DNA of 64,000 nt. Origin: Phytophthora colocasiae (taxonomy: Eukaryota; Oomycota; Peronosporomycetes; Peronosporales; Peronosporaceae). The notes below the pieces were generated by a model. That model worked only from the letters and a program-made list of their open reading frames with translations, ran no database searches and was not told the DNA's origin. Made by a program: the position numbers and the translations under genes. Numbering within the stretch: the stretch's first letter is position 1; the number at the start of each line of letters is the position of its first letter. The DNA lies in contig JAGKQI010000007.1 in assembly GCA_018806915.1 (NCBI GenBank), positions 124,001 to 188,000 on the forward strand, in the 5' to 3' direction. Shown here piece after piece: positions 17,781 to 49,480 of this stretch.

Positions 17781-17818
17781 TGGTGCGCGTGCCCGGATTT
17801 TTGGAATCGTGATATCAC
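17781..17818 (+). promoter_or_regulatory. Primer binding site of element B
   Basis: TGGTGCGCGTGCCCGG starts two bases after the LTR, followed by ATTTTTGGAATCG and GATATC. It aligns with the primer site of element C (TGGGCGCATGCCCGGATTCG...GATATC), so both families probably use the same tRNA. Similarity extends past the usual 18 nt. Confidence 0.7.
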
Positions 17819-17871
17819 CGGATTTGAGAATACAAGAAGAGAAAGTTTCCTGTCAAGCGTCTATATTCAAG

Positions 17872-20800: not shown

Positions 20801-22115
20801 CTGCGAGCTCGTCATCAGAAAACTCGGAGCCAGGTGAAGTGGTGAACCTGACGGCAGCAACTCAAGCACAGGCCGGAACCACACTTCTGACACTGAGGCC
20901 GTTCATGAACTCCAACAACCTTGGAGAATTCGACCCCAGAGCTACACTCAGGGAACGTGTCCACTGGTGGGAGCGGTTTACGAATATGGCTTCTCAAGGA
21001 GGTTGGTCGACTAAGACGCGCATCCAGGAACTTAAGTTGAAGCTCCCTGTGTCTGCGCGAGACTGGTTTAACCAGCTTCCCAAAAGTGTGTCCCGTGACT
21101 GGAAAGAGCTGTCTTCAGAGTTCAAGAAACGTTATTGCAAAGCTCGGTCATCGTATTCTGAGAGATACTTCACTGTGGCTATGAAAGATTCTGAGACTCC
21201 GCTTGAATTTTTCTACCGACTTAATTCTGCCGCCGGAAAAGCTGACATCGATTTCCGGAAGTCGTCCAAGCGTCTTGAAAAGCATGTACTGCGATTCATC
21301 ACGAAGCTTAAGGATGCACGCCTGAAAACGTCGCTGCAAGGTCAGAGATTTCACGAATTTCAGACTTGGAATATGCGTTGCAGCAAGATGAAGACGTGTG
21401 GCGAACTGGTGACCAAGAGATGACCCCTACCAAGTCTCGAGATTTCCGGGCTGACAATATTCCGCGAGGACAGTTCAAGCCCAAGCGTGTGCATCGGACT
21501 TATGTCGCAAGAGATATGGATTCTGAAGACTATGACTCTGAAAACTCTGAAAATCATAAGGAATCTCTGAAATCCAATCAGGATACCAGAGATCAGACGG
21601 GTGATTCCAGAACTCCAAGTGCGACTTCAGAGTCTACTCGTGATGAAAGTACTGCGCAGGCATCTTCGAACAATTCGAAGGCTCCACCAAGTGCAGATTG
21701 GACGCAGACTCTGACGAATGAGGTATATCGAGTGATGGATAACATGGGATGGCGTCCGCCGCCCCAGTCCCCGTCTGGATCGTCAGGTCAAGGATTCCAC
21801 CAGAGGCGTCATGAGAATAGCGGCTACTGGAACAAGTTCTGTGAAAAATGTCAGCGCTCAGGACACTCAGAGGAAGATTGCTGGAGAGACGTCACGTGTG
21901 ACCGATGTCAGGAGAAGGGACACCCGAGTCGAATGTGTCGGATGCCACCCTGTGAAGTATGTGGAAGAGTGCACCCTGGAAAACCCTGTGAAGATCTGAA
22001 AACTCTGGAAGCACTCAAGCAACTCGCTCGACAAGGCGCACTCAAGGACATGCCGAACCACCTACGGGAGAAACTCCTGGGTGATGAGGCAGACTCTGGG
22101 AAGCCGTTAAACTAA
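17872..22115 (+). pseudogene. gag: Element B gag with three zinc knuckles (one frameshift)
   Basis: The first ATG is 17872 (MATPGSTRGGRRGRGRS). The first 1180 codons run to 21423; the protein then continues in the next frame through 22115, so one shift near 21370 splits it. The N-terminal half is long, acidic and Ser/Glu-rich and unusual for gag. A long coiled coil follows at about 19780-20280. The capsid-like part (FMNSNNLGEFDPRATLRERV, then WFNQLPKS and FKKRYCKARSS) lies at 20895-21350. The end has three Cys/His knuckles: CEKCQRSGHSEEDC, CDRCQEKGHPSRMC and CEVCGRVHPGKPC. Element C has the same organisation. Its length (about 1400 residues) far exceeds ordinary Ty3 gag. Confidence 0.9.
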
Positions 22116-22389
22116 TATGCCCGTCGGATGGGGATCCGAAACGCGCCGGGCATGGCGTTACCCCAGAGTTATGTGTTCTAGTGTGTGTAGGACCAGAGCT
22201 GAGAAAGACTCAAGATAACATTCAACAATGCATGACTACTTTTGCCCAAGACTCGACCATACCTTCTGGAAATTCAGGGAACGAGTTACCTGAGATCGCC
22301 GAAAACACCAACCAGACACCAGACGACACTGTCGTTCAAGTTGAAGGATGGCGAGTGTTACGGCTGGTGGGAGGACAACTACCCTGATC

Positions 22390-25300
22390 GGTCAAAGAGG
22401 GATGTGGTGATGGTGTATGGTGCTGTGAATGACCATCGGACCAAGATTCTCTTGGATACTGGTGCGACCATAAACATTCTGAGTTACGACTTTGCGCGTA
22501 AGCTCGGACTCAGACTTAAGTCGCACAAGAAGACCAAGGTGTCAGGAATGGGTGGTGTTCCAACATATATTGGTGCCAGTGCTGAGATCAAATTGACACT
22601 TGGGCCAAGAGTGGTATATATTGTGGATGTTTGGGTCGCGAATATCGGTGAAGGAATTGACGCGCTTCTGGGAATGGGTTTTATGTTTGCTGCTGGAGTG
22701 AGAATTAGCGCTCGTGAAGGTCTGGTGTCGTTACCGGACGAGGTAGTGGTGATGATGTGTAATTGGGAACCTGGTGATCACATTGGTCGCAACAGGTCGG
22801 TTAGACCAAGCGAGGCTGTCCTTCTGAGTCCGGGCGAGGAGTTCATTGTCCGAATTGACTATGGCCCAACGAACCCCCAGAGGGAAGTCGTGTGGGCCGG
22901 ACGTGGTGATCGCTGGGTTACCCAGCTGATCTATGCGGCTCGATCTTGGCCTGTGGCCGTTCGCGTGGTAAATATCTATGATAAGAACACGTGGGTCAAT
23001 GAACTCTCCGATGTTGCGAGGATCGTGGAATATGGTTTCTTCCCAAGGCATGGACGTTTCGTGCGTCCAGGTTCCGCTGCTTATCGTGACTGGGAAGTTC
23101 TGTTTCTGGAAAGCACCCCGTCACCAGAGACTAAGAAACGTATGAAGAGAGAGGCGGAGTTGGAAGCTCTGATGCCGCAACCCCCGTGTGTAGATCGCCC
23201 AGACTACCCATGGCCGACTGAAATACTGCAACGTCCAAGGTTCGACAACGCTCGAGTGCAGTTCGTGAAACCAGATTCACCACCGACCGTGAAGCGAGTG
23301 CGCTTCGCCCTGGATGCATCCACCCAGACAGAGGATGGTTGCCACAGTGAATCGACGGGAGGTGCGGATATCAGTACAGATACCAGAGATTTGGAAACAT
23401 TCTCTGAAAGTACTTCGCATACAGATCCTGGTTACACGTCTGTTGCTTTCGACGATGATGTCCTTGACTTAAAACCTGAGTGTCTCCTAGATGATCCTCA
23501 GACTCCTGAGTTACCCGCGGATGATTTCGACTTAACGGACGAGTCTTTGGATATTCCCATTCACGGGATGCCTGGAACGCCTATGGAAAAGTTACGAGTG
23601 GAATACGAGCGGTGTATGAACGTTTCGAATGAAGAATTAGACCTGGAGCCAGGTGTATATATGCGAGAAGGTACGGAACTCCTCACTCAATTACGCGACC
23701 AACTGGTCATGTTGCCAGAGTTGGAAGAGTTGACACCAGAGTGCGATATTGATAGCGCCGACGTTGGAGAGCCGGGAAAGACGACTCCAGAAATGGAAAG
23801 GAAATTGCGTGACATTCTGAAACGCCACAAGAAAATATTCCTGGGAGACGGTAATGCGGCGCCCGCACCGGCAAGGGGCGTGGTCTGTGATCTGGATGTG
23901 GGAGATGCCAAACCGGTGGCTCAACGTCCGAGGTCCGTCCCTCCCCATCTCATGTTGAAGGTGTACGAGCTTCTCAAGAAACTTCTGGAGACTGGTTTGA
24001 TCGCGTACTCCAACTCCCCATGGGCATCTCCTATCGTGATCGTTCTAAAGAAGAATGGTGTTGACATAAGTACGTGTATCGACTATCGCATTGTGAATGG
24101 CTTCATTCAACTGTCGCGCTACCCTCTACCTCTTATTGACGATCTCCTAATTGGTTTTGAGGCTGCCATGTGGTTCATGAGCCTGGATATGGCTAGCGGT
24201 TTCTGGGCGATCAGGATGACGGAGCGCGCACGACTGATATCAGCTTTCATTTGCCCGTTTGGGCATTTTCAGTGGGTAAGGATGCCGTTTGGTCTGAAGA
24301 ACGCCCCTCTTGTGTATCAGGCTATGTTAGACAATTGCCTGTGGGGATTCGTGAGACTGTCACCAGAAGAAGAAGCTGAAGTTGATGCGGAGGTTCTGGA
24401 ATTCCTACAACTCCAGCCTCAGGACTCTGAGAAGCATCTTTCAGACTCTGAGAACCATACTCCGATTTCAGAGATGCCAGCACTCACAAGTCAGATGACC
24501 GTCTTTCAGAGGAATATTCCCGTCCCCACATGCATGGGCCCAGTCCTGGGGAGGAGTTCATACATCGACGACATCGCACATGGAGCACCGACTTGGGACC
24601 AATTATGTGACGACTTGAACGCCCTGCATTTCAGACTTCGCTATTGGAACATTTCTGTGAGTTTGCCCAAGAGCGAGTTCGGGAAGTTGTCGATACCGTA
24701 CCTATCCCACGAAATCAGTGCCGAGGGTCTGAGGGCAACACCCAAGATCGTCAAAGGAGTTGAAGAACTGCCATTTCCGTCTACGTTGAAGGGGGTACAG
24801 AGTTTCATGGGAAGCCTCAATTATTACAACAAGTTTATTGAGGATTTACCGGTGATCGCTGCTACTCTCTATGAGCTGACAGACGAGCAGATTCGTGCTG
24901 GACGAGACCTGACTCGTGCGAAAGAGGCATTCGAGATTCTGAAACGCAAGATAGTCTCTACTCCACTACTCAGACATCCAGACCGAACCAGACCGTTTGT
25001 TGTTATTCCGCATGCGAACCCTTGGGCTGCTTCGGCAGTCTTGGGACAAGAATATGAGGGAATAATACACCCGGTCCGGTTCACAGGTCGTGTCCTGAAT
25101 GACGCCGAACTCAGGTATCATATCGCTGAGAAGGAGGTGATTGCGATCCTTAGAGTTTTGGAAAACTTCAGAGCTCTGGTGGAGTCAAGTCCGGTGATTG
25201 TGGTCTATACTAGATACGCTGTTCTGAAATGGCTGCTAACATCGAATTCCACCGACGGCAGAAACGTCAAGTGGGGTCTGAAGTTGTCGCAGTGGCATTT

Positions 25301-26819
25301 GGAGATTCGCCGGATTCAGCGTGATGAAGACGGACTCCCAGCTATACTCGGCGCAGGCATAACTCCTAGGGAGCATCTGGACGAAGTCTCTGAAAATCTG
25401 ATTCCAGTCAAGGGGCGAGTCAAGCCGCCAGTTCCTATCAGTGTGAAAATGTTGGAAGCAGATTATCAGGGTTATGTTCTGAGTTTTGACGGTGCCGCAA
25501 AGACGTCTACTCGTCTGGGAAGCTGTGGGTGTATACTCTGAGAACTCCCGGGGTGGAGTGTTCTGGACGCCCGAGGATTTCCCCTGGCGGATGTCACAGT
25601 GAACGATTCAGAGTACTGTGGCCTGAATTATGGTCTGAAGATGGCGCTCGAGTACGAAATACAGGAGCTGGTGGTTGTAGGAGACTCACGCATCGCGATA
25701 CAGCAGGCTCAGGGATTGATCAACTGCAATCAGCCTAACTTGCAACGGAGGTTGGCCGAATTTGAGACTCTGAAAACCAAGTTTCAGACTCTGAAGTTGG
25801 TGCATGTGAAGCGCGAGTTCAACCAAGCGGCGGATTACCTGACCTCGAAGACTTTGACCCTTGGGGAAGCGTGGCGAGTACAAGATGAGGATGAACTTAT
25901 GCACCTGCAGCTGGTATCCAAAGTTCATGAGAAACTGATGAAACCTCGCTCAGTCCCGAACATGGAAGTTCAAGAGTCAAAGATACCAGACTCTGAAAAT
26001 CATAATGCGTCACCAGAATCTGAGGATGCTTCTGGTCCGGAATCCGCACCCCTGCCTCGATCAGTTAGAATATTGGTTGCCGTAACCCGTGCCCAAGCTC
26101 CGCTTGATGCTAATCCGCCTGAGGACGATGACGAACGAGAACCTTTGGGGCCTTTGGAGTTCCAGGCAGAACGCTGGCGACGGATTAAGGCGCATCAGAG
26201 CCAGGACCCGCACTTGGTTGAGCTCATGAAGTTTCTGAAGGGCGACGTGGGAGATTTACCACGACCCCGAGTCAGGAAGCTTGCCAGAGTTGCTGAGGAC
26301 TTCGTTCTGGATTCTAGAGATGTACTTTATCGTCTGAGTCGCGCTACTCGAGAGCGGCCCCGGGACAATGTTGACGAACTCAGACTGGTGGTTCCCAGAG
26401 ACTTGTATCCAGACTTGTTGCACTATGCTCATGAAGATTACCAAGGTGGACATCAGGGAATTAGGAGAACCTTTGAGAAGCTGAGTTCGGAGTTTTACTG
26501 GCTGGGTATGTATGCTGATGTGGAGAGATTTGGGAAGGAATGTGTGGACTGTGCCAGTGGCAAGGGGCGACCCCCAAATCCTGGACCGTCCCCTGGAAAT
26601 ATTGAGCCCAGCCGGCCGTTTGAAGTGGTGTCTATGGATTTTGTGACCCACATGCCGAAATCAGCACGTGGAAACACATTTCTCTTGCTGTTCCAGGATA
26701 TGTATTCAGGATACGTGATGTGCAAGCCAATGAGTGTCACCACTGCTCAGGATGTAGCAGAGGCTTATGAGGAACGCGTTTTCAGAAACTTTGGAGCTAG
26801 TTATTCTGATTCGTCATGA
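22390..26819 (+). pseudogene. pol: Element B pol: protease, RT, dead RNase H, second RNase H, integrase start
   Basis: Polyprotein that copies and integrates the element. Protease LLDTGAT lies at about 22450, with LLGMGFM near 22665. RT starts near 23960: LKKNGVDISTCIDYR, DMASGFWAIR, PFGLKNAPLVYQ and YIDD at 24561-24572. Between PLVYQ and YIDD lies an extra stretch of about 75 residues. The first RNase H (about 24980-25340) reads PHANPWAAS and VYTRYAVLKW where active enzymes have Asp. A second RNase H follows with SFDGAAKTS, NDSEYCG, VGDSRIAIQ and NQAADYL (25480-25850). A TGA at 25539-25541 replaces a Trp codon conserved in C. Integrase has HEDYQGGHQG, CVDC and SMDFVTHMP. The frame breaks near 26805. 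Confidence 0.95.
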
Positions 26820-27288
26820 TCAAGATCCTCGGTTCATAAGTGAGGTGTTCAGGTGTTTCAGGGAGCTTTTGGGTAGCAGACAACGAGCTACTCTAGGATA
26901 CCGGCCTCATGCCAACGGTCAGCAGGAGCGATCAGTACAGACTGTGGTGCGCGCGATTAAGGCATATATCTCTGAGGCTGATCAGAGTGATTGGGACGAT
27001 CATGCTAAACGTCTAATGTTGCGACGCCGTATGGCTCTACATCCCTAAGGTACAAACAGGATTAAGCAGGAAACTGGCGCACATGTGGCATGAACCCTTC
27101 AGGATCGAGGAGATGCTGGATGATTTCAGAGTGCGACTCAAGGTTGAAGATACCGGCTATCGCGTAAACCCCTGGGTGCACGTGAGCCGCCTGAAGCCCA
27201 GAGCCTTGTTTCCCAGACGACCAACGGCAGAGCTTCAGATCCCAGAAGATGATGACTTTGACGCCGCCCTGTTACCAGAAGATAGTTA
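26805..27288 (+). pseudogene. Element B integrase C-terminal part, internally deleted
   Basis: It continues the integrase in shifted frames: RHDQDPRFIS (second catalytic Asp) and QQERSVQTVV (catalytic Glu). Immediately after DDHAKRLM about 350 bp present in element C is missing, and the sequence resumes at VWLYIPKVQTGLSRKLAH and GYRVNPWVHVSRLKP. The deletion removes the end of the core and the linker. Confidence 0.88.
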
Positions 27289-27299
27289 AGAACATGATA

Positions 27300-27534
27300 C
27301 TGAAAAGACGAGTATGAAGTGGAGAAGATTCTGGATACCCGCTGGGGCAAGCGTACCAGAACGTCTAAACGCCTGCGCGAATATCTGATTAAGTGGAAAG
27401 ATTACAATGAAACTGAGTGGTTACCGTTATCGAAGTTGAACTGTGGAGCATTACTTTACGAATTCAACCAGAGTGCACGAGCACAAGCCCGTTTTCAGGC
27501 GATGCAGGCTGGCGACGATCACCTCAGAGTCTAA
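27300..27534 (+). pseudogene. Element B chromodomain
   Basis: KTRTSKRLREYLIKWKDYNETEWLP-type chromodomain at the integrase C-terminus (YEVEKIL, then YLIKWKDY and EWLPLSKL), followed by NCGALLYEFNQSA and RFQAMQAGDDH. Such domains steer integration to modified histones in chromoviruses. It lies one frame away from the preceding segment; TAA at 27286-27288 separates them. It ends at 27534. Confidence 0.88.
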
Positions 27535-27920: not shown

Positions 27921-30900
27921 TCAGTAGCGAAGGGAGATCGGGTTCTCGGAACGCTCCGTAGGTGTCAAATGATCCTTCTTGACGTCAGCGGGGACGTACT
28001 GGAGCCACTCTTCGTCCACATTCACCGTGGCCCATTGCATCCGAGCAGGCTCAATCGCATCCAAGTCACCCAGTTGCGTCTCTAGACTCAGACACTTGGG
28101 ACCCCCCAGCTCTGCGACTCTGGGATCTTGCCAGATCCAAGGGCAGGACTTGTCTGGGACAACCCAGATACCAGGCTCTGAAAGCAACGACTCTGGGAAA
28201 TCTTTGTGCTCCAGGACCTTTCGGATGAGGGCTGTGTTGACGAATCATGGCGGCTCGACGCATGGACCGGTACTTGTGAAGCTCCGCAGACTTGTCGTCA
28301 GCCTCAACGTCCATGGTCACCCAATGCGTTCGCTCCCAGAAGGCTTGAGCGTGCTTCTTCATGCTGCGCACAATGTCTTCTACGTCAGCCAACACCATGG
28401 GTCCCAGTTCGTCCCGCTTGTGGAAGTAAAATTCTGAGAATCTGTTGTCGAACATGACTTCCCAAGGGGCGCGCTTCTTGCGGATGACCGCACAGTACCG
28501 CTCAGAGTCCCAGCGCTTCTTGAGGATGGCACATGAGTGCTTGTGTACCTCGTAGTCTGGGGAACCCAATGTCTTGCCCGTGGTGGTCCTAGTGGAGCTC
28601 ACTCGTTGTACTCTGATGCCATAGTACAACCAGGAGGATGCCTCACAGTCTGGTGTTTCCACCACCTGGAGCTCCTTGACCGCCAGAGAGTTATAAGGCT
28701 TGGACACCAGACTACGTGCCTTCCCAGAAGAACTTTTGGACTTCGATCCACTTCCACTGGTGGACTTCGGACGGGACTTGGGACTGGTGTGGGCTTTTAT
28801 GGATGCCAGACTCCTCTTGGACTTCTTGATGGGGATGATAGGCCCATCATCAGAGTCTGAGTCGGCATCAGAGTCTCGGGGACGCTTGGAACCAGGACGT
28901 GGGTGGTCATCGGACTTCTTGTCTCCAGACTTCTTGATCCCGGACTTCTTGTCTCCAGACTTCTCGCTCCCAGACTTCTTATCTTGAGACTTCTTGTCTT
29001 CAGACTTGTCGCTCTCGGAACCGCTGTCGTCAGACGCACCGTCATCTGAGCTCCCGTCGTCATCTTCGTCTCCAGATTCGACCACACCAGAATCCTTGTA
29101 ATCCGGATCGCCCTTGGGGTCATCGGCAGTGGACTCAACATCACTCTCCGGGTAATTCACGTGACCATCCAGGTCACCCCAGGCCGCAGGCTCAGTACCA
29201 GCCGAGATGTGACGATCCACCACCTCATCAGCCATCTGGTAGTAGACCTCAGGGACATACTTAGCCCAAGGAGTGGAATCCAGACGACGAGAAAACACCA
29301 GACTCACCAACATCTGGACGAGAACCGGACTGCTGAAGAGGCTGTGAGCTTCTTTGTCCGACGCTAACCACTCCATGGCCTTATCGTACTTGATCCCAGA
29401 TAGCAGAGCTTGGCGGAGGTCAGGGCGGACTTCTTTCCAGACCACGTCACCAGGGAGCCTCTTGTGCACTTCAGACTTTGCCACCTTGGAACCTGCATTC
29501 GCCGAAAGCACCGAGTCTTCGACAGGCTTGTTTCCGGAAGGACGACGTTGCAAATTCTTGAGGTCCCACTTGAACGGCCGCTTAGGAGATGACTTCAGAA
29601 CCTGGGGCTTCGGTGGGTATGACAGATACCGTGGACTCTCACTCTTGGACTCCGAGGCCCCAGCACTTGGACGGGTGATATCCAGAACTCTGGTATCCTT
29701 CGCAGCTTTCTCGGCAGCCTGACGAGCTCGCTCTTCAGAGAGCCGTTTCTTGAAATCAGGAACGGGCTTCTTTCGCGCGTCCAAGGCTGTCACACTGATG
29801 ATCGTCGTCCAGTTATCAGGGACGACAGTGTCCTCTTGAAAAGACACCAGAAGGTCATGAAGCCGATCCCAATTAGAGATTTCAGAGTTCTCTTGTAAGA
29901 ACTCTGAGAATCCCCATGGATCTGTGGGCTTGACTTCAGGGCACGCCTTCAGAATCGAGACCTGCGCCTGAAGATCAGCGACTTGGGACTTCAGAGCTGC
30001 CTTGTCCGACTTCAGAGCTTCCACTTGGTCCTGGTAGTGAGCCTTGAGATCCTGAATCTCCGAAGCCATGCGTTCTTCTACCACACCGGCGTCTTGCTGG
30101 GCACACTTAAGCTCGTGCTTCCAGTATTGACAGTGCTTTACCCACTCGCGCTTGATCTCTTCGCACTCAGACCGGACCGCCGCTGCATCAATTATCAATC
30201 AAAGCGACGCCGTTCTGAGAACCAACGCGTTCTCGGAGGCGACGGTGAGCCGCAGCCATGAGTTTTAGACATCCCGCTGTCCGGAAGACTCTCTCCGCAA
30301 GTCGAGTAGGGGGAAGATGAGACAGCAGAGAAGCCAGCTCCCGACGAACCTCAACTGACGAAGTCACAGAATCCAGGACACGCGCATTTGGGGCCTGAGC
30401 ATGAGGAGATACGACTTCGGCAGGATCGAAACTTGGGATCACGCGTTCCAACTCTTGAAGATCATCGTCGGTAAATGCCTCATACCCCACAAGCACACAA
30501 GGGCCACCGTAAGCGTTTGCGATGTGACGCCCCCTTCTGAAATCCTCGGCTCGGGCGGGTGTGCTCACCAGAAAAGCGCGTCCTTCCGGTTCAATGTGGG
30601 GAGCAATGTAGTTCTGTGGAATATCAGAGTCCCCCAATGTCGTGACTGGAACTCCCGCACTCGTCACCAGACCTTGGGTGAACAAGCGATCGACCTCTTC
30701 GGTGGATAAGAGTCTCGGAGCGCCGAAAGTCCGTGACCTGAAGACCCCAGGAGTGTCCTCAGTGAACTCAGGATTGGGACCACTCGGTGCATTCGCCAGG
30801 GAAGAATCTCTAGAACCGGCCGAGTCCATGCCATCACCAGGGAGATTCTTAACCGAACCATCGACCCGTGGGCTTTTAGGCTGGGATGTGAGGGCTGGGG

Positions 30901-31054
30901 CGCTCGAGCTGCCACCTGGCGATGTGGCTGAACCAACATCTCCACCCTGCACTATCCTGGCAGTTGCCGAAGCAGGACAAGTGCCTGTGGCGTCGCCTGC
31001 CACCCCACTTACTGGGGCGTTTGAGCTCAGGGAAGTGTTTGTTTCCTCAGTCAT
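27921..31054 (-). pseudogene. Element B antisense gene: coiled-coil nuclear-type protein of unknown function
   Basis: A long gene on the strand opposite to gag-pol, convergent with the chromodomain end. It is read from ATG 31054 (MTEETNTSLSSNAPVSG) to 27921. Frameshifts near 30195 and 28240 break it into three overlapping frames (31054-30188, 30198-28066, 28187-27921); joined it would be about 1000 residues. The order is a Ser/Gly/Pro-rich start; a conserved block FRRGRHIANAYGG and ERVIPSFDP; a coiled coil (about 30180-29960); W-containing block NWDRLHDLLVSF; WKEVRPDLRQALLSGIKY; an acidic then basic stretch (DEDDDGSSDDGASDD, KKSKRS); and a C-terminal domain with SWLYYGIRV, EFYFHKRDEL, FWERTHWVTMD and EPGIWVVPDKSC. 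Every block aligns with the antisense gene of element C. There is no signal peptide or membrane segment. I do not recognise it. Confidence 0.85.
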
Positions 31055-31281
31055 GAGCGAAAGGACGGAGGTTTGAAAATGATCGCCTGTTAGGCGAGTC
31101 AAGTTCAAATTTCTGAGTCTGAGAGAATCAGATTATGCGACGGGACACCAGAGACTCTGAAAACCAGGCAACTGGCAAAGAGTTGCAGCTACGCTACGCT
31201 CTGAAAACCGTCTATCAGAATGTTTGATGGGCCTGGCCATGATACACAGCTTGGAGAAAGTTCCGCACTGATGGATCGTGA

Positions 31282-31295
31282 CCAGGAGGGGCGGT
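31282..31295 (+). promoter_or_regulatory. Polypurine tract of element B
   Basis: AGGAGGGGCGGT lies directly before the 3' LTR start (31296) and would prime plus-strand synthesis. Element C has a comparable GAGAGGGACGGT next to its 3' LTR. Confidence 0.8.
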
Positions 31296-32763
31296 TGACA
31301 TGATGTTGATTCCGATTTTCGAGCGACAGGTGGATATTACGTTACGATGTGATTGGTTATACTATGGTTTATAAGCGAAAGGGACTTTGGGACGCGGCGC
31401 ACCCGTGCGACATCTGTGGAAGATTGTGGATAAACCTTCGCCTGACTGTAAAGGGGCCCAAAGGACCAGAAGTGTACTTCAGAGTGTGCACAACTCTGAA
31501 GGTCAACTACACTCTGTCTGGTCACCGGACTTTCCCCGACGATGAGTGCCTAAGTTCTGGCGGAAAGTCTCTCAGAAGAACGTATCTCTGAGAGACCTCA
31601 TCCCGTTACCGTCCAGCGCGACGATGGATGGTTCAAGGATTCACAATATATACCCGCAGAGACCAAGTATCGCGCGCCGGACGCCGCGCACCCGCGCAAC
31701 CCTCAAGATCTTCGTGTACGTTGAAGCATTAGTGCTCCGTACTCTGGTTTCTTACTCAAAACTCTGGTATCTCTAACTCTGAGTGACCAAGACTCTGAAA
31801 AGCAAGTGATATCAGACTCTGAAAACCAGGATACCAGACTGTGAAACCACCGAAGATCCAAGACCATACTGAAACCAAGTGAACCCAAGTTCAAGTCACG
31901 CATTTAAGTGATTACTGACCTGCACATCCCCCATAATGACGTCTCTACCTGTCAACCCATCGAGATCGGCTGCACAGACTGCATACTGAGACCAAGTCAA
32001 AGTACCAGATGTATACAAAGACCAAGAGTACCTGAGATATGAAGACTGACTGCATAAAGGACGCAAAAGACGACAAGAAGGAGAGAGTTACCAGAGATAT
32101 ATGATAGTTATGAGGAAGATAAACGATAAACAGAGTTCAATTTGCTTGCTACTGCACAAGTCCGCTTGAGAGGTATTCAAGCCACTGCGTCATCACGTAT
32201 ATGGGTCGTGTGATCTCCACCAAATTCAATCCCCTTAGGTGGAGATCAGGTAACGTAGAGACCTGAAAGGACCCGGCCTATTCCATATCCTAGTTGGGTC
32301 GTTTGTTTTTTCTCTAGCCGTAGCCCATTTCATATTGATCGTTTGGACAGGCTCTGGAAACTAGACAGTCGTTTTCAGAGTGCAAGGTAGACTGTTATAT
32401 ATAGCCGATTGTATTGGTTTATATTTTCCCTCTATACTAGAGGGTGGTGCGCGAACGTAAAGGGATACCAGACAGACCAGGTGTCTGGTAGCAAGTCCCT
32501 AGTTGACCTGGAGTGTTAGCCCACCGTTCAAGGGCCTAGAAAGAATAAGAACGGCTGTATATATTTGTATATTTTCGAACTCTGTGTATTGGTTGGTTAT
32601 CTCTGAAAGTCAGGCATCTCGGTTCTGGATTTGTGATATTCAGACACCGATTTTCAGACTTTCTCTGGTATATTAACCTCTTTTCGACCGCCGACTTCCT
32701 GGAAACCATCTTGGTTCCCAGAGATTCCGACTCCCGAACGCTCCTGGAAGGATTTCCTAAATA
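31296..32763 (+). repeat. 3' LTR of element B, first part
   Basis: Matches 16092-17567 of the 5' LTR. It is interrupted at 32763 by element C after the sequence TTTCCTAAATA, and the rest is at 49250-49476. Confidence 0.94.
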
Positions 32764-34301
32764 TGTGGCGAAGTGGGTGAACACTTTTGACCGCCCAGGG
32801 GGTTGCGTATAGTGTGCCGTCCAAAAGGAACAACCCAGACACTAAAAACTCCAAAAGAGAGTTAGTAGTCAGGTGTCCAGTTGGAGTGAGTCAGCACCAC
32901 CTTCCGGTGTCCAAATGGGTGTCCGGAAAGTGGCTTGGCGTGTGACCTTGTGACTACCCTCGTAGGTGTCGTTTGTCTTCGAACGCGAGGAGTCTGCACC
33001 GAAAGTGTTATCTCCAAAAGATTGTAGAACTAGATCCGGAGGGAGAGTGCTAACCAAATAAACACTTCCCAAACGGTGGTTAATTAGTCCGAAAGTGGGT
33101 AAGCACTTATGAGCAAAGTACTTCCCTCCAACAGTTAACCAAATATACAAGAGAGTTAAACCAAAATATACAACCGCTTCTTATTCTTTTCGGCCCTCGA
33201 GCGGTGGGCACTCCAAATGCCAGTACGACTAGAGCAAAGTCCGGAACACTGGCACAGTTCCGGGGCTCTTTAAACAGCGCACCACTTCCGATAGATTCAC
33301 TAGGAATCTCCGGAAGAATAGAATCCAATATATATGTCCCAAATACTATGTAGTATTTAAGAACACACACAACCAATACAGTCCAAACACACAAGCAGTC
33401 AAATCAATCAATTTTAGGGGTGACTACCACTAACCTCCCAAAACGCAGTTATAATATGAAATAATACCCGAAAGTATCAACTGGAATATGAAATGGAAGG
33501 GTCACGCCCGATACGCCGCCCGGATCACCTTTTCCTTTCCAACTTGGTCTTACCCCTGGCGGAGATTCACGCGGCGGTGACGCTTGTCGACGCGGCCTGA
33601 CGCTTGTTCGGCTACACGTGAAGCCCTCTTCTCGAGGCTGGTCCACGGCTCCTCACAGTGTGTCTTGGGAACACCTTCCAAGACTTTGCACTTGCGCCCT
33701 TGGTGGCAAATTGAACTCTCTTTAATGTATAATAGCTAGCACTAGCTAAACATGCAAAAATATACTTGGTTTCACTATGTAGTAGGGGCGTCTCGTCAGG
33801 AAGAGGCATGCGTTTCAGTAGAATACCATAGAGTCAAAGAACACGGAAGAATTCCAGCTGGCTCCGGACACATCATCGTCGGTCGTCTTGGTCGGTCGGA
33901 AATATATGGCCTTGAGTATACCCGAGACTCAACCAGGATACTGGGTACAAACCAGACAGTCTCCGATAGTCAAACGTTAAACTCCACTTCGAACCTTCGA
34001 CTTGATAATTTGGGTCTCGCATATACTCCAAAAATAGAACCCCTTGGTCATGGCGTTACCGAACAGTCACTTGGTTTCGGTGTTCGAATCATCTGGAGTG
34101 CATCTTCCGGAGTATGTCAGGATCTTTTCAAGTCGTTTCCATCTTTTGGAGTCGGCAACCCCTTCCCAGGCTTGCCCTTGTCCCTTGGCACCCACAATTG
34201 TGCCTTAACCCTGAAATCATTTGGACCAGTAATATCGTCAATGCCGCTCTGGCTCTGGGAACCGGCAGTCCATAGTAAATTTGCAGAGTCACAGCTTCAC
34301 A
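32764..34301 (-). repeat. 3' LTR of element C (element orientation)
   Basis: 1538 bp, paired with 47711-49249; on plus it starts TGTGGCGAAG and ends GCTTCACA. A TATA-like CATATATATT sits on minus at about 33335-33325 (and 48285-48275 in the other copy). The polypurine tract AGAGGGACGGT is on minus at about 34302-34313. Confidence 0.94.
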
Positions 34302-34591
34302 ACCGTCCCTCTCATCATGAGCTCTCATTGAGCAATTTGCTTCCGAGGTGATAGGTCGCGATGAGACGAAGCAAGACGAAGGCACCACGATCAAAGTCCA
34401 GTCGGTTATCCAGGAGAAGTCGTCCGCCAGTAAATCGGTCAAATTTCCACGCAAACTCCAATTCGGTTCTCCAACTAGCGGAGGTGTCGTCTTTTCTTCG
34501 CCTGGTCCCAACTCAGCCAATCACTTCACGTCGAAAGATCCCAACAAGCTCACACGCTCACTTTGCGATATCGCGGCTGCTGAGCGCTCCA

Positions 34592-37406
34592 ATGGAAGCT
34601 ACCACGTCGTCACACATATCTCCTACGGCCGTACCTGCTGCTCAAGCCGCCCCAGGGTCAAGTATCACCTCCACACATGGTTCAAGCGTCGCTGGCAGTC
34701 AATCTGACATCCCTAAGCAGTCTTCGGGAGGGGATAATGTACAACCAGGAAGTGGAAAAGCGCAGGAAGGCGGGAGTAATGATGAACATCGCGATGAAAG
34801 CGCAGCAAGCGACATCTTGGGTCTCGGCAAAATGCGCACAGCTCCCATAACATCGGTTGAAGCTTCCCGATTGAACGTATCAAGCCGACTCGGCCCGGGT
34901 GGTCCTAAGCAAACGCCTATCAGTCTCACCATAGCGGACTTCTGCTCTGCGGAGGACACTCGTCTGGTCGGGATTCCTGCAGTTGCGAATCATTTGGGGC
35001 GAAGTCGTTTCTTCCAAGATGGCTATGGTGGACTGGAAATGCTGGCACAAGTGGAGCGCCTATCGACTTCGGAAAAGGCGATGTTATTCCAGTTCTTTGA
35101 CGAGAGCGATGATTTGAACGAACACATCCTGACTCCAAGATCCGATTCACTTCAAGGTCCTGAGCTGGAAACTTTGTTGGCCGATCTCTCTTTTCGTCGT
35201 CACATGGCGAGCGTCCTGACCGAATTTGATCCTGAAAACTTCGCTCAACGTGTCTTCGGCACTGTATCCGCTCTACGTCGAGTCACTGAGAAGTTGAGCC
35301 GAGTCCAAGCGGAACTCGAGAGCTCCGAAGAATCCGTTCGAGATGCTAGTGGTCATCAGGATGTCTTAGACTCACTCAGGCGTGAATTCCAGTTGGATCT
35401 CGCTTCTCGCGATCAACGTATCGCGAATCTGGAAGTTGAGAAAACAGAGATCATTCGAAACTTTCGTGAAGACACTTTGAAGTTGTTGCAGGAGCACGAT
35501 CGTGCCAAACGCGGGCATCGCACCCAGATTGAAGACTTACGTCGCCAAGTGGAAATGGAAAAATCTCGTCGCCGGAGTTTGGAATCTCAGCTAGCTCGGT
35601 CTGCCTTCAATCCGGTCGATTTGATGAACTTTCTTGGGGCAGAGAACCACACCCAAGTCCAGATGAATTGGGAACGTCTGTTAGGCCTTTTGAATCACTT
35701 CCGAGATGGAGATCCTGTGGATCCAACATGGCGCACAGTGATCACAGTGATGACCCCTGATGATTTTCGCCCTTCATTTCCGGCATACGTTCAAATGATT
35801 CGCCCGGACGACGATGGAGACTCTAAAGAATCCGATCCATCGCTACCGCCTCTCGTCGACCTTACTGGAAATGTTTCGTCTGAAAGTTCGGGCAAGTCAT
35901 CATCCAAGAAACGGTCACCTTCTGGAGGTTCATCATCAAAATCAAAAGAGTCCACGAAATCTCGGAAAGCTCCACTCCACATGCAGAGTCGACCATCAGG
36001 CTGGGATAGTGATTCTCAATTGGATTGTCGTCCTGATGATGCTCAAGTTCTCTGGACGCAAGCTGAGGCACGTCAGTCTCTTTCTGACCATCCAGTCGCC
36101 TGGGAAGATCTTCGAATGGATCTTCAAATGATGATGATCTCTGGTGTGAAGTATCCTGGTGCTCGTGAATGGTTGGGAGAAGATCGTAGTGCACACACGC
36201 GTTTCGAACTGGAGCCTCTCGTAGCCATGTTGGTCCGGATAATGTTCTGGAACAAGCTGGATGAAGTCTTCTGGACTAAGTACGTCCCGAGACGCTACTA
36301 CAACTTGGCAGAATCGGTATTGGAGCAACTTTTCATGGATGAACGAGAGCCAGAATACTGGGGCCCCATGGTTGAACAAGAATGTGTTCTCGAGGAGATT
36401 CTCGATCCAGACGACTCCAATGAACAGCCGGATGATAAGTCTAAAGATGGTGATTTCAATCCGGATGAAAACGAGGAGCCAGATGATGATGATGAACCGT
36501 TTCCACCTCCATCACCTCCAACACGACACTCCGGTTACCGTCGACTCCGTCCGAGTGACTCATCTAGTTCGACTTCGACTGCAGGGAAGAAGCGACGGTC
36601 ATCGGACTCCAAGAGTACAGTTCTCGCTCGTCGAGACTTTGAAAGTCTTACACCACTGGAGAAGGAGATCATTGAAGTGCCGAGTTCAGGGGAAACCTCT
36701 TGGAGACACTACGGAATCCGGATGAAGTGGAGTGATCCGCTTGGAGGTCACGCCCGGCAGACTCCGGGTCTTCCTGACTATTCTCCGAATCGTTATGATG
36801 TGAAGATCCTGAAATCACGTTCGTGGAGTATGGATCGACAGTTGCAACGGCTTCTCTTGGATGCCCCTTGGAATGACGTGTACTCGCGACGTCCTCAGGA
36901 GTTATATTTTCACACTCGTGACGATTTGGATGAAGAAGCTCGGGATGCGCTATATGACTGGACCAATTTCGTCGCTGGTGATTCGAGGGCCTTCTGGCAC
37001 ACTTACCACTGGTTAACGCTTGACGGATCGCCATCTGCTCCATTGTCTATCCGGAAAGCTCAAGACAAACGGACCAATGTCCATTCGGTCTTCCGAAAAA
37101 GAGCTTTGGCACTACTCACTCGAGTGAAGTCTCGTCTTCCGGACTCTATTTGGTTCGAGCCTGGTGTGTGGAACTTCCCAAACAAGTTATGCCACGGACC
37201 CCGGTCATCTCAACCCGTCTACCGGTCATCCATACACACTCGAAGAGCAGCTGAATCTGTTGGACAGGCAAGAACCTGGACGTGCGCAGTGGGTTTACTG
37301 CAGCACCGAAGAAGAACGAATTGCTCATGTTCCGGATGAACTTCGGGCCAAGCTGATCCCAGTCGAGCAGCGCATCCAGTTTTCCGATCTCTGGAGCGAA
37401 GACTAA
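34592..37406 (+). pseudogene. Element C antisense gene, homolog of the B antisense gene
   Basis: It starts at ATG 34592 (MEATTSSHISPTAV), 290 bp inside the 3' LTR, and runs convergent to pol. One frame is open to about 37165; the protein then continues in the next frame to 37406 (TLEEQLNLLDRQEPGRAQWVY). One frameshift thus separates it from an intact gene of about 940 residues. Blocks in order: PAVANHLGRSRFFQDGYGG; a coiled coil at about 35275-35600; NWERLLGLLNHF and DPTWRTVITV; Ser/Lys linker; WEDLRMDLQMMMISGVKY and KYVPRRYYNLAESV; an acidic run and GKKRRSS; TSWRHYGIRMKW, ELYFHTRDDL, FWHTYHWLTLD and WFEPGVWNFP. All correspond to blocks of the B gene. The long open frame despite strong divergence suggests past selection. 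The function is unknown. Confidence 0.9.
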
Positions 37407-37674
37407 GATTGCGCCCAACTCCGGATGAAGGTCATCTCAATTCTGCATGTTTCCACGTAGCAATCACTTTTAACCATCCAAAATGCACTCATTTCATCTC
37501 GTAACATCTCCAGTAGTCATCTCGTTAATTTCCTTTGAAGTCCCATGTAATCTCTCGAAACTCACCTCACGACAACTTCCATGATAATCATAATCCAATC
37601 GTAATCAAAACAAAATTCAATCGAAAACACACTTCCAATCGATCCACCCGGACATTCACATGACATGTGAACGT
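37407..37674. other. Spacer between antisense gene and pol of C
   Basis: 268 bp without coding signal, AT-rich (TCATCTCG, TAATC and AATCC repeats). The two convergent genes end on either side, as in element B. Confidence 0.5.
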
Positions 37675-38435
37675 CTAAGCTCGGGGATGATCATCCCCAG
37701 CCTGCATCGCCTGGAACCTCGCCCGCGCCCGCGCTCCTTGGTTAAATTCATAGAGTAGGGCACCGCAGCTAAGTTGCGATACAGGTAGCCATTCAGGTTC
37801 GTCATATCCTTTCCACTTCACCAGATATTCTCGGGTCCTTTTGGAGGTACGAGTCTCGACCATCTCAGGTCCAAAATCTTTTCAACTTCGTACTCGTCGT
37901 TTCCAACGTCAGGCTCCCAGCTATCTTCTGGAAGAAGAGCAGCATCGAAGTCATCGTCGTCTTCCACTTGGACTTCACCGGTTGGGCGTCTGGGGAATAC
38001 GGCTCGTGGCTTTAGACGACTTATGTGTACCCATGGGTTGACACGGTACCCCGTGTCCTCGACCTTGAGTTTCACTAGATAGTCGTCATGAACTTCTTCA
38101 ATTCGAAAAGGTCCATGCCACATGTGAGCTAATTTCCGACTCAAACCAGTCTGAACCTTCGGAATATATAACCAGACGGAGTCTCCCTTCTCGAATCCAG
38201 ACTTCAGTCTCTCAGACAAATCTTTCCATCTCTGAGTTTGAACTTCCGAACGATGACGTTTGGCCTTCTTTTGGAGATCTTCAGCAAACGCAATCGCATA
38301 ACTATAGTCGCGTTGCATTTTTCGTCTCCACTCGTAGGCCGTCCTCTCCGGAAGATTGTGGGGCTTTGGACCCAACATTGCCGAGATGGTCCCAGCCGTG
38401 GACCAGGTAGAATGGGGTCTCCAACCGGGTAGCAT
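37675..38435 (-). pseudogene. Element C integrase end and chromodomain
   Basis: Frame 38435-37818 carries the integrase C-terminal part (YEWRRKMQRDYSYAIAFAED, VWLYIPKVQTGLSRKLAH and GYRVNPWVHISRLKP) up to YEVEKILDLRW. A further frameshift near 37860 leads to the chromodomain end, RTREYLVKWKGYDEPEWLP and CGALLYEFNQ, which stops at 37675. Both shifts disrupt an otherwise complete chromo-integrase. Confidence 0.9.
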
Positions 38436-41400
38436 CGAAGGATGTGTTCAAAGCAAACATGAGCCTCTCCACGTGGTCGTCCCAGTCGCTCTGGTCTGCT
38501 TCCATGATATAAGCTCGGATACTCCGGACGACCGTCTGGACTGACCGTTCTTGCTGACCGTTAGCTTGCGGACGATATCCCAGGGTGGCTCTTTGAAGAC
38601 TTTCGAGTAGATTCCGGAAACATTCGAAGACAGTACTCATGAACCGCGGGTCTTGGTCATGTCGAATCATCGAACTCGCTCCAAACCGTTGGAACACCAC
38701 CTGCTCATAAACTTCGGCGACGTCCTGGGCAGTTGTCGAATTCATCGGTTTGCACATGACATATCCGGAGAACATATCTTGGAACTGAAGCAGAAAAGTA
38801 TTTCCGCGGGCCGACTTCGGAAGATGCGTGACGAAATCCATCGAAACGACTTCAAATGGGTAAGCCGGCTCAATATTTCCGGGTGACGGACCATCATTCG
38901 GAGGTCGTCCCTTTCCACTTGCACAATCCACACACTCCTTCACATGTCGTTCCACATCGGCATACATTCCTGGCCAATAATATTCCGAAAGAAGTTTCTC
39001 ATGAGTCCGACGGATCCCTTGATGACCTCCTTGGAAATCTTCGTGAGCATAATAAAGCATGTCGGGGCGCAAAGATTCTGGCACGACTAGTCGGAGTTCT
39101 ACCAAGAATTCTCGAGGTCGTTTTTGACTAATCGTCGACAACCAGTAAAGAACATCTCGACTGTCCAATGTGAACAGGTCGGCTACCTTGGCGATCTTCC
39201 GGAGTCTTCGGCGTGAAAACCTTTCGAGATCACCTTTCAGAAAACTTTTCAGCTCGGACAAGTATTCATCCGCATCCTGATGTGCCTTGATCCTCCGCCA
39301 TCGCTCGGCCTGAAATTCCAACGGACCCATGGGGACTTCATCTGGACGTCCCGAGTCGGGGTCCTCAGCTTGTGCAATGGCAGCCATGACCCTTGCAGCA
39401 GGAGGGAGGGGAGCGGATTCTGGCCCCGGAAGACTTTGATCATCTGGAATTTGAACTCCGGATGATACATCTTTTAAAGTCTCTTTCTCTTCCGAGCCGT
39501 CCACCTTCATCAGTTTCTCTGCAATCTTGGACACATGCTCCAGATGATTTAGGTCACTTTCATCCCGAACTTCCCACGACTCATCTAGTAGGAGAGTCTT
39601 CGAAGTCAGGTAGTCGGCAGCCTGATTGTATTCTCGCTTCAGATGCACGAAACGGATCTTTCGGAACTTATCTTTCAGAGTCTCCGCCTCCGCGAGATGT
39701 TTCTGGAGATGTGGTTGGTTGCAGTTGATTAATCCCTGGACTTGTTGAATTACAATCCTGGAATCACCAACCACTACCAACTCATCGATACTCCGGTTGG
39801 ACGCCATCAGCATGCCCTTCAGAAGTCCATGATACTCCGCGTCATTTACTGTGACGTTATCTAAAGTAAAACCACGAGCTTCGAGGACCTTCCAACCAGG
39901 CAGTTTCCACAGGATACAACCACAACTTCCTTTCCGGGTGGATGTCTTAGCAGCTCCATCAAAACTCAGGACGATACCTTCGTAATCCGACTCCAACATT
40001 TCGATACTCATCACTGGAGGTTTCCGGATGCGTCCCTTGAGTGGAATCAGCGATTCCGAAATTTCGTCCAAATGTTCACGCGGAGTGATGCCGGTACCCA
40101 TAATAGCCGCTAAACCATCTTTGTCCTTTTGAACTTTTCGAATGTCCAAGTCCCAATGAGATAGGGCAAGTCCCCAGGGCACACAGCGCCCATTGGCAGA
40201 CTTTGAATTGAACACCCATTTCAAAACAAAATAACGGGTGTAGACAATCAACTTGGACTGTTCAACCAAACTCCGGAAAACTTGAAGCACTCTCAAGATC
40301 GCAATGACCTCCTTTTCCGGAATGTGATAGCGTAACTCGGAATCATTCAGAACTCGTCCAGTATACCTGACCGGATGAATCATCCCGTCATATTCCTGGG
40401 CGAGGACTGCGCAGGCGGCCCAAGCATTGGCGTGAGGAATAATCACAAACGGTCGGGTTCGGTCCGGATGACGCAGTAGCGGGGTCGAAATGATCTTGTG
40501 CTTCAAAAGTCCAAATGCTTCTTTGGCTTGGTCCAAATTCCGCCCTGCCTTGATCTGTTCGTCCGAAAGTTCATACAGAACTGCTGCGACTACCGGAAAA
40601 TCTTCAATGAACTTGTGATAATAATTCAAACTCCCGAGGAACGACTGGACGCCTTTCAGAGTGGTCGGAAACGGAAGGTCCAAAACACCCTTTGTGATTT
40701 TCGGAGTAGCTCGAATACCTTCAGCACTTATCTCATGAGACAAGTATGGGATCGTCAATTTTCCAAACTCACTCTTCGGAAGACTCACCGAGATGTTCCA
40801 GTATCTGAGTCGAAATAGCAATGCATTCAGATCTTCACACAACTGGTCCCAAGTTGGAGCACCATGGGCGATGTCATCGATATAGGAACTTCGTCCCAAC
40901 ACCGGACTCATCTGAGACGGGGCAGGTATATTCCGCTGAAACACAGTGATAGTATCCGAAAGATTTGGGACTTGGAATCCAGCATCATGATGACCTTGGC
41001 CATTACCTTCCGGAAGATTCAGTTGTAAGAACTCCAAAACTTCAGAGTCCACTTGGGCTTCCTCTACAGGAGGCAATCTGACGAATCCCCACAGGCAGTT
41101 GTTAATTACTGCTTGATAAACCAGTGGTGCACTTTTGAGTCCAAATGGCATACGAATCCACTGGAAATGTCCGAATGGACATACGAAAGCTGAAATCAAC
41201 TTTGCACGTTCCGACATTCGGATAGCCCAGAATCCACTTGCCATGTCGAGACTCATAAACCACATTGCACTTTCGAAACCGATTAGAAGATCGTCGATCA
41301 GAGGTAACGGATAGTTCGACAATAAGATGAACCCATTCACAACTCGATAATCAATACACATCCGGATATCGACTCCATTCTTCTTCAAGACGATAACGAT

Positions 41401-43464
41401 CGGTGATGCCCAAGGAGATTCCGAATGTTCGATCAGTCCGGTCTCCAAAAGTTTCTTGAGTAATTCGTACACCTTGACGGCCAAATGAGGTGCAATCGAC
41501 CGTGGTCGTTGTGCAACAGGTTTAGCATCTACAACATCCAAGTCGCAAATCACACCTCTCGCCGGAGCCGGGGCTGCATTACCGTCCCCTAAGAAAATCT
41601 TCCGATGACGTTTCAGAATCTTGCGGAGCTTACGCTCTTCTTCTGGAGTTGTCTTTCCGGGTTCTCCAACGTCCGCCTTCTCGATGTCACAACTTGGAGC
41701 CAACTCATGTACTTCGGGAAGCATGACCAGTTGGTCCTTCAATTGGGACAACATGTCACTTCCCTCATGTACATAAACGGCTGGTTCCAAATTCAACTCT
41801 TCTGCACTCACGTGCAAACACCGGGTGAACTTGGTTTCCAATCTCCGAATGGCTCGATTCAACATGTCTGACTGGACATTCTCTCCAAAAGATCTCCTAG
41901 GGGGTTCGAATTCTTCCTCCAGAGCCATATCTTCTGAAGGGTCGTCCCCTGTCAAGTCCTCATCCACAGTAATCGCATCGAAAAATTCATCATCATCCGA
42001 ACTTTCAAATACGGACCCATCATCTCCATCTGGAACTTCATCACAAGTTTCGTATTCTTCAGGATCTGGCTCCACAACTCGCGGAGGGTCGCCAGGTTCT
42101 GAAACTTCATCGATAGTCGGGAGTTCTTCTCGAACAGGATCATCCGGAATTTTCGGGGGTGGAACTTGAAGTTGGACCATGTGCACGTTTGAGCTTCCTC
42201 GGGGTGGCCTTACCAACAATTTCTTGGGCCACGAGTAGGTTGTTCTTTGGACACATGGTGGTCCGGACTCGGACAGCATCTGCATGTACTTCTGTTGTCG
42301 GAGCTGCTCCTGTCTGGAGTTGGTATTCTCATAGATCAGGACCTCCCATTCTCGATACCTCTGAAGTCCTGGCCTCACAAAACGTCCAAAAGGATAACAT
42401 CCGTACTCCACAATCTGGGCGACTGTGGTGTTCGGTCCCATCCAGACGTCCTTCTCCGAAATATTCACCACTCGAACGGCGACTGCCCAAGATCGGGCAC
42501 CATAAATAAGCTGCGTCACCCATCGGTCACCACGCCCAGCCCACACAACTTCACGTTGTGGATTACTCTGGCCATAATTGATCCGGATGACAGCTTGCTC
42601 GCCCGGTTGGAGGCATATCGTCCCTGATGGTCGCACGTCCAGCCGAAGTCCTTTCCTTTGTTGGTCGAACGTTCTTCCGGACAACATCACATTCTCTTCA
42701 TCTGGAAGTTGCACCAAGCCTTCTCGAACACACAATCGGACTCCAGCCGAATACATGAAGTCCATTCCAAGAAGCATGTCAACACCTTCGCCGATGTTGG
42801 CAACCCACAATTCCAAAACATACACCACGTTCAGTCCCAAAGTCACCTTCACTTCAGTCCGAGCAGAGATGATTGTCGGCACTCCTCCCAATCCGGACAC
42901 CCGGAGCTGCTTCTGAAAGTCCAACTTGAGCTTGAGTCTACGCGCAAGATCCAAACTCAGCATACTTACTGAAGCTCCAGAGTCCAAAAGAATCTCTGTC
43001 CAACAGTTTTACACCGCACCATGTACCATAGCAACCCTTTTCGAATTCTCCGAACGATGTTCTTCCCACCATCCATAACTCTCACCGGGTTTGAGCCTGA
43101 ACTCGACAGGAGTGTCATCCGTGTTATCTGGATGCCAGTCGTCTAAAAGGTCAGGGTCATCACCAACTGGAGTGGGGTCTTCTTTCGGGAAAATGGTCAT
43201 GCATTGATGGTTAACTTGTCGTCTCAACTCAGGTCCAACGTACGCTAAAACACACAATTCTGGGGTTTTCTTGAGCCCGGCGCGTTCTGGATCCCCATCC
43301 AGCGGGCTTAGTGGTTTAACGGTTTCTCCCCAGAATCGGCGTCCGGATCCAGAAGTTGATTCCGGATGGCGGTCGGCAGGTCCAGCGCACCTTGTTGGAT
43401 GAGACTCTTGATGTCTTGAAGTGCCTTGTACTCTCCACATGATCCTTCGTGATACCGGTGACAA
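38302..43464 (-). pseudogene. pol: Element C pol: protease to integrase, one in-frame stop
   Basis: A single frame of about 1720 codons interrupted only by TAA at 43011-43009, just before protease LLDSGASVS. After a long acidic linker comes RT (LKKNGVDIRMCIDYRVVNGF, SLDMASGFWAIR and YIDD near 40880) with the same insert between PLVYQ and YIDD as in B. A first RNase H follows without catalytic Asp (IPHANAWAA, VYTRYFVLKW), then a second one (SFDGAAKTS, NDAEYHG, VGDSRIVIQ, NQAADYL at about 39970-39600). Integrase has YAHEDFQGGHQG, ECVDC, SMDFVTHLP, RHDQDPRFMS and QQERSVQTVV, so its catalytic triad is complete. The frame is lost near 38365. This is the best preserved polymerase in the window. Confidence 0.95.
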
Positions 43465-47598: not shown

Positions 47599-47669
47599 AA
47601 CAACCACACTCGGAAAGTTAGCAAGCAATCAATCCCCCAAAACTAATCAACAAAAATATAAAAAGATAA

Positions 47670-47708: not shown

Positions 47709-47710
47709 GC

Positions 47711-49476: not shown

Positions 49477-49480
49477 CGCA

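Follow-up and report, generated by a model that had tools for sequence, protein, structure and literature searches.

Antisense accessory genes of long terminal repeat (LTR) retrotransposons have been described mainly from plants (PMC7264820, PMC11963269; these and the papers below are cited for their accessible text). In plant Tat elements such as Grande (gene23), RIRE2 and Retand, an antisense open reading frame (ORF) termed aORF-3R occupies the interval from pol to the 3′ LTR, and some aORF-3R products give coiled-coil matches resembling structural maintenance of chromosomes (SMC) proteins (PMC7264820, PMC11963269). The Grande antisense gene has its own promoter and a nuclear product (PMC7264820), and the TRP28 domain (PF04195) is present in 97% of recent Retand clusters (PMC11963269). 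Beyond plants, the fungal element Boty, named in PMC7264820, has an antisense ORF after pol, and human T-cell leukaemia virus 1 (HTLV-1) carries near its 3′ LTR the antisense gene HBZ, whose nuclear product has a role in the viral life cycle (PMC7264820, PMC11963269). The Chronos group of oomycete Ty3/gypsy elements, known from Peronosporales and Pythiales, combines a dual RNase H with a chromodomain (Ustyantsev et al. 2017, PMC5348765); by its reverse transcriptase (RT), chromodomain-bearing Chronos is only distantly related to Tat (PMC5348765), and the dual RNase H of Tat, of Chronos and of Archon arose in independent events (PMC10508981). Here, we analysed a window of 64,000 nucleotides from Phytophthora colocasiae (assembly GCA_018806915.1, contig JAGKQI010000007.1, positions 124,001 to 188,000), in which two Ty3/gypsy elements, B and C, each carry an antisense gene between pol and the 3′ LTR, as the plant elements do. 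This gene is a real third gene of Chronos-type elements, and its product is a new protein family within a known type of arrangement.

The antisense gene occupies the strand opposite to gag-pol and comprises approximately 1,000–1,100 codons:

27921–31240, minus strand: antisense gene of element B, with open pieces at 30188–31108 and 28066–30198 and frame breaks
34361–37406, plus strand: antisense gene of element C, open from 34361 to 37339 (992 amino acids)

A preliminary description of this DNA had proposed antisense genes in both elements, which was borne out more strongly than claimed, with the frames confirmed. Its gene ends (27921 and 37406) stood, while its starts (31054 and 34592) had to be moved further upstream to the family start codons at 31240 in B and 34361 in C. 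Both window copies are broken, as the family reading finishes in another frame in each (stop codons at 27921–27923 in B and 37404–37406 in C); intact copies are present elsewhere in the genome. The antisense gene and pol are separated, stop codon to stop codon, by 268 bp in C and 386 bp in B, and the distance from the antisense start codon to the edge of the LTR is 59 bp in C and 55 bp in B. The antisense proteins of B and C are homologous (96 and 87 bits, best E = 2e-24; N-terminal piece, E = 2e-07), and an alignment of the family (A1) reproduced the motif blocks listed earlier in the same order: YGG, NW.RL, W..R.DL, KYVP..YY, SW..YG, FH.R..L, W..HW, EPG.W and QL..LD, the last two of which sit in B's other frame. 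The divergence of B and C at the DNA level was likewise confirmed, with stretches of pol DNA 72–76% identical (blastn).

Elements of the B and C type share with Chronos the Ty3/gypsy domain order, the dual RNase H and a chromodomain after the integrase. RT_RNaseH and RVT_3 both exceeded the Pfam cut-off in B and C, the second domain presumably corresponding to the additional archaeal-like RNase H of Chronos. The chromodomain PF00385 was found over cut-off at the pol end of one clade-D copy (E = 1.7e-8), and a similar motif can be seen by eye in B and C. By these predicted domains, the window elements carry the Chronos domain set. In the main text of the Chronos description (PMC5348765), the words 'antisense' and 'opposite' occur 0 times, and the accessible text of PMC7264820, PMC11963269, PMC10508981 and PMC5348765 does not mention a Chronos antisense gene. 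None of the titles and abstracts retrieved in a literature search, which reached neither Repbase nor most subscription papers, dealt with antisense genes of oomycete elements.

Orientation, clades and relatives

We searched the 92.5-Mb genome with antisense queries from B, C and P. megakarya (64, 50 and 59 rows listed), scoring the best 63 of 798, 46 of 843 and 56 of 623 candidates, respectively, and with two integrase queries, scoring the best 77 of 3656 and 102 of 2710. Merging the rows of the three antisense searches gave 123 loci and merging those of the two integrase searches gave 135 loci. Among the matches listed, to which all genome-wide counts refer, 75 of the 123 antisense loci had an integrase match within 6 kb, and the two were convergent in 74 of these 75, in line with the convergent orientation proposed before. 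For the remaining 48 of 123 antisense loci no integrase match was listed within 6 kb, and likewise 60 of the 135 integrase loci lacked a listed antisense match within that distance; two such integrase places were inspected, and the antisense gene was present in both (clade D; one copy intact, 1095 codons). The single same-strand pair (C57:1006033), where an antisense gene 46% identical to that of C stands beside an integrase 97% identical to that of B, may consist of two separate elements.

Five divergent clades (B, C, D, E and F), in which intact copies occur, could be told apart among these matches. The antisense proteins of clade D are 52% identical to the B rows, those of E 46–47% and those of F mostly 42–43% identical to C, and the rows of alignment A1 are 23–52% identical to its first row. 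In the search with the B query, 42 of 64 rows contained no stop inside the match. With the integrase of C as query, C copies scored 95–97% identity, neighbours of F genes 82–84% (one similar place 76%), neighbours of E genes 84–86% along one part of the match and 71% along the other, and B-like and D-like places 70–72%. Hence integrase identities group the loci as antisense identities do, where integrase matches are assigned to clades by position and the grouping compares identities rather than branches of a tree. Judged from these identities, the antisense gene appears to have been transmitted together with pol through all five clades, evolving faster. Several pol matches of clade D-like elements (on C48, C75, C3 and C8) lie in open frames of 1916 amino acids, which suggests recent activity.

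In protein databases we found 19 relatives, all from Phytophthora and without named function (8000 candidates scored per search); they belong to P. megakarya, P. citrophthora, P. palmivora and P. capsici, to which we presume the entries labelled 'Phyca11' belong. None of 10 pattern matches in viral contigs was confirmed. The Phytophthora relatives suggest, as far as protein sequences can tell, that a number of 'hypothetical proteins' annotated in this genus are element genes.

Selection on the antisense protein

For the comparison of nonsynonymous (dN) and synonymous (dS) divergence we retained 30 of 59 ORFs, those with at least 900 amino acids (14 from clade B, 3 from C, 2 from D, 6 from E and 5 from F), a set conditioned on open frames, which excludes stops and admits missense changes. 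Across the 14 clade B ORFs, dN was 0.0252 and dS 0.2078 (ratio 0.121; pairs 0.08–0.33), and differences at codon positions 1, 2 and 3 numbered 3004, 2396 and 11655. When 60-codon windows were considered, the proportions of nonsynonymous and synonymous differences (pN/pS) gave ratios of 0.03–0.29 in 17 of 19 windows, the others reaching 0.67 and 0.45 at residues 61–180. The integrase end of the same loci yielded a similar ratio of 0.155 (10 of 13 loci usable), and the one clade D pair 0.127; between clades, dS was mostly saturated. Purifying selection on the antisense protein is clear in clade B and the D pair, for both of which the earlier claim of selection on a protein stands, and less clear in C, E and F.

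These results bear on two rival explanations. It might be the antisense RNA rather than the protein that matters, pairing with sense RNA or feeding small RNAs, and the short distance between the convergent stop codons does invite transcript overlap; however, the ratio in clade B and the excess of third-position differences point to selection on the protein, and we regard an RNA-only function as quite improbable. Alternatively, the gene could be a captured host gene or a passenger useless to the element. The restriction of its relatives to Phytophthora (at the search depth given above) would fit such an origin, but the clades have kept long open frames despite the low identities in alignment A1, clade B is constrained, and neutral ratios were not seen in B or D. 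We regard this explanation as extremely improbable.

We also compared the gene with its flanks. In a whole-locus alignment of the 14 clade B loci, the mean difference was 0.053 in the spacer, 0.065 in the gene and, over the 300 bp preceding the start codon, 0.087 with the outlier locus L015 and 0.012 without it; an earlier comparison had given 0.126 (spacer) and 0.011 (upstream) after out-of-register stretches were dropped. The first values (0.110 for the spacer, 0.143 upstream), for which the flanks had been taken to diverge freely, were faulty, because some ORFs start late or end early and the stretches were thus out of register. As dS of the gene is higher than the divergence of both flanks, divergence is uneven along the element. 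Possible causes are recombination between element lineages, homogenisation of LTRs or a kept upstream promoter, and the near-identity of the upstream 300 bp in clade B would fit either a kept promoter or recently homogenised LTRs. The dN/dS ratios are untouched by this result, because they compare sites inside the gene. In 150-bp windows across clade B loci L011–L037, divergence was approximately 0.01 at the LTR edge and leader (one outlier), rose to a median of up to 0.1 midway along the antisense gene and had medians of 0.01–0.03 in pol.

Protein features, candidate promoter and proposed role

Profile searches against Pfam, NCBIfam and PDB gave only weak matches, mostly to coiled-coil or acidic stretches and under the cut-off where one exists. 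They were rejected as relatives on account of their scores and their mostly coiled-coil or acidic composition, so that the family, as stated before, fits nothing recognisable beyond a coiled coil. AlphaFold modelling, which the preliminary description had suggested, produced no confident fold (two models, mean predicted local distance difference test (pLDDT) scores of 41.6 and 52.4); the model of P0005 contains one long helix (288–367; pLDDT approximately 70–85 at 321–360, lower at the ends), the rest being poor. TRP28 was missing from the families matched by 12 members at E ≤ 1 (25 of 27 listed), and a six-frame search of the genome gave no TRP28 match over cut-off and one 17-bit match elsewhere. 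The oomycete protein thus differs from that of Retand, in which TRP28 is present. The comparison with plant Tat elements drawn earlier holds for the arrangement, as the location and antisense orientation of aORF-3R were found both in the anatomy of the window and in the convergent pairs genome-wide, and does not extend to the TRP28 domain. HBZ is a basic leucine zipper (bZIP) protein, whereas leucine-zipper-like (HALZ) matches to the oomycete antisense proteins lay far under cut-off. The best reading, by analogy, is that the oomycete protein is a counterpart of Grande gene23 and HTLV HBZ from an unrelated family.

Nine antisense proteins were examined for composition. None contains a 19-residue stretch with a hydropathy of 1.6 or more, and all have an acidic 40-residue stretch (18–23 D/E) and 1–5 K(K/R)x(K/R) patches, compared to 0.6–1.5 in shuffled sequences. 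A particle or envelope-like component might be expected from the post-pol place of the gene, which is the site of env in retroviruses (PMC7264820). However, the gene is antisense in nearly all paired loci, the nine proteins lack a strongly hydrophobic stretch and the listed Pfam matches included neither a gag nor an env family; we consider such a component improbable.

A promoter of its own was sought in the short leaders between LTR and start codon:

31241–31295, minus strand: leader of B (55 bp, LTR to antisense start codon), with a weak block resembling an initiator (INR) plus flanking promoter region (FPR) that starts 31 nt before the ATG
34302–34360, plus strand: leader of C (59 bp, before the antisense start codon), with the INR+FPR-like block TCATTGAGCAATTTGC at 34325–34340

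The leader of B also carries a sense-strand purine tract. A 16-base promoter consensus was discarded, as it occurred 6 times in the window against 9.4 expected, without enrichment; definitions from the literature (YCAYTYY and MWTTTNC, separated by two bases; median CCAAT-INR distance 83 nt; accessible text of PMC3599244) were used instead. We scanned the 58 bp leading up to the start codon in 15 loci and took the best match of each. Blocks with 2 mismatches at −36/−37 were found in 3/3 C loci, 3/4 E loci (3 mismatches in the fourth) and 1/2 F loci, and blocks with 3 mismatches at −31 in 5/5 B loci and the 1/1 D locus. Equally good matches arose in 13–20 of 500 shuffled leaders for C, in 3–15 for three E loci and 48 for the fourth, and in 17 and 404 for the two F loci. 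A CCAAT box lies at −116/−117 in B, D and E, that is 80–86 nt before the INR+FPR-like block; the F loci had too little upstream sequence or another start for this reading. A promoter of the gene's own thus receives moderate support in C, E and F and weak support in B and D, as far as motif matches can tell.

Taken together, we suggest that the third, antisense gene encodes a soluble nuclear coiled-coil regulator of the element and is driven by its own promoter, an explanation that as a whole we hold with slightly better than even confidence. The gene would be transmitted with the pol lineage through five clades and transcribed from an oomycete-type promoter with its core in the 55–59-bp leader, to which the edge of the neighbouring LTR would in some clades add a CCAAT box. 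Such a promoter would allow expression from the integrated copy independently of genomic RNA. The product would be a soluble, nuclear, coiled-coil and probably oligomeric accessory protein, which might regulate the element within chromatin; promotion of its transcription or protection against host silencing would be the most likely means. The nuclear role proposed before agrees with the basic patches, the acidic stretch and the missing hydrophobic stretch and is not helped by patch counts and structural models; a nuclear, regulatory role nevertheless seems the most likely reading of the sequences.

Several observations weigh against this explanation. The patches resembling nuclear localisation signals barely exceed shuffled counts except in E, and both AlphaFold models are poor. 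At the second F locus, whose ORF starts elsewhere, the best block has 4 mismatches and a different position; the blocks of the B and D leaders were equalled in 84–122 of 500 shuffles; blocks with at most 2 mismatches occur anyway approximately 0.5–0.6 times per kb per strand; and no CCAAT was seen upstream of the C antisense start. Whole-gene dN/dS reached 0.53 in C, where the set includes the window copy with its last part in another frame, and 0.43 in E; in F it was 0.176 as a ratio of means with a median of 0.42. The first 240 residues gave values near 1 in E (block 841–960, 0.05) and 0.72–0.75 in F (0.30–0.51 for the rest). In addition, the flanks of clade B, at 0.053 and 0.012, lie below the gene's dS and provide no neutral yardstick.

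A rival with a different timing would have the protein act once reverse transcription is complete, assisting the chromodomain integrase as a cofactor for nuclear import or for the integration site instead of regulating transcription or silencing. It is in keeping with the chromodomain at the pol end of the clade-D copy, with the basic patches, the acidic stretch and the coiled-coil helix of the model, and with the nuclear location of the Grande protein (PMC7264820, accessible text). Nothing observed here separates such a cofactor from a regulator, however, and no additional prediction of it was borne out; we consider it unlikely, if conceivable.

The regulator explanation can be placed in a wider frame. 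We infer a parallel between Tat and Chronos, in each of which an antisense gene accompanies an added RNase H, and the arrangement in these distant plant and oomycete elements may have evolved more than once. Boty is not known to have an added RNase H, and this element, likened here by its description, would show that the two features need not co-occur. As a tentative generalisation, which we consider less likely than not, LTR elements with dual RNase H (HTLV-like retroviruses, Tat and Chronos) might have acquired a nuclear regulator encoded antisense at the 3′ LTR on at least three independent occasions. The Chronos gene would then run from a host-type promoter in the 55–59-bp leader, and the integrated copy would supply a latency or anti-silencing factor ahead of any genomic RNA. 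A second lineage from a different kingdom, in which an added RNase H is accompanied by a selected, unrelated antisense gene, offers an independent way of testing the purpose of such genes.

Structure and nesting of elements B and C

Both elements are full-size Ty3/gypsy elements with a 4-bp target duplication each. Element C (32764–49249, minus strand) was inserted within the 3′ LTR of element B, which extends from 16092 to 49476 with CGCA flanking both ends:

16088–16091 and 49477–49480: target duplication CGCA of B, edges read from the sequence
16092–17778, plus strand: 5′ LTR of B (TG...CA), 97.6% identical to the portion of the 3′ LTR that precedes element C (blastn self-comparison)
17781–17800, plus strand: primer-binding site of B (TGG...), which looks like the complement of a tRNA 3′ end, from sequence
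17809–22115, plus strand: gag region of B, ORFs 17809–21423 and 21366–22115, zinc knuckles seen by eye
22242–27534, plus strand: pol of B, with protease, RT, RT_RNaseH, RVT_3 (second RNase H) and integrase zinc domain (Pfam)
31296–32763, plus strand: first part of the 3′ LTR of B, interrupted by element C (blastn self-comparison and edge reading)
49250–49476, plus strand: remainder of the 3′ LTR of B beyond element C, 98.7% identical to 17552–17778; its first 4 bases are the target duplication of C
32760–32763 and 49250–49253: target duplication AATA of C, edges read from the sequence
32764–34301, minus strand: 3′ LTR of C, 97.8% identical to its 5′ LTR (blastn)
37675–43464, minus strand: pol of C, with protease, RT, two RNase H domains and integrase (Pfam)
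43308–47628, minus strand: gag region of C, ORFs 43308–44384, 44867–47482 and 47023–47628, with a Retrotrans_gag match under cut-off
47690–47708, minus strand: primer-binding site of C, from sequence
47711–49249, minus strand: 5′ LTR of C (blastn self-comparison and edge reading)

The pol frames are broken in both elements, with stop codons at 27532–27534 (B) and 37675–37677 (C) and a chromodomain-like end recognised by eye. A Pfam search of the B gag ORF 17809–21423 gave no match, and Rfam and tRNA scans of the window found none either.

Two sequences in direct orientation, 12553–12868 and 51676–51983, are 91.5% identical and are candidate LTRs of a third, smaller Ty3-like element, to which a Tf2-1-like integrase end at 14791–16170 was assigned. 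This element may enclose B and C, which would give three levels of nesting. ORFs at 4709–8112 gave weak matches to AAA and PIF1-like helicases under cut-off and are possibly remains of a Helitron, and a minus-strand ORF at 59046–59858 with a chromodomain match under cut-off perhaps belongs to another chromodomain element. At 10815–11114, a sequence of approximately 150 bp is present in two adjoining copies that are 98.7% identical.

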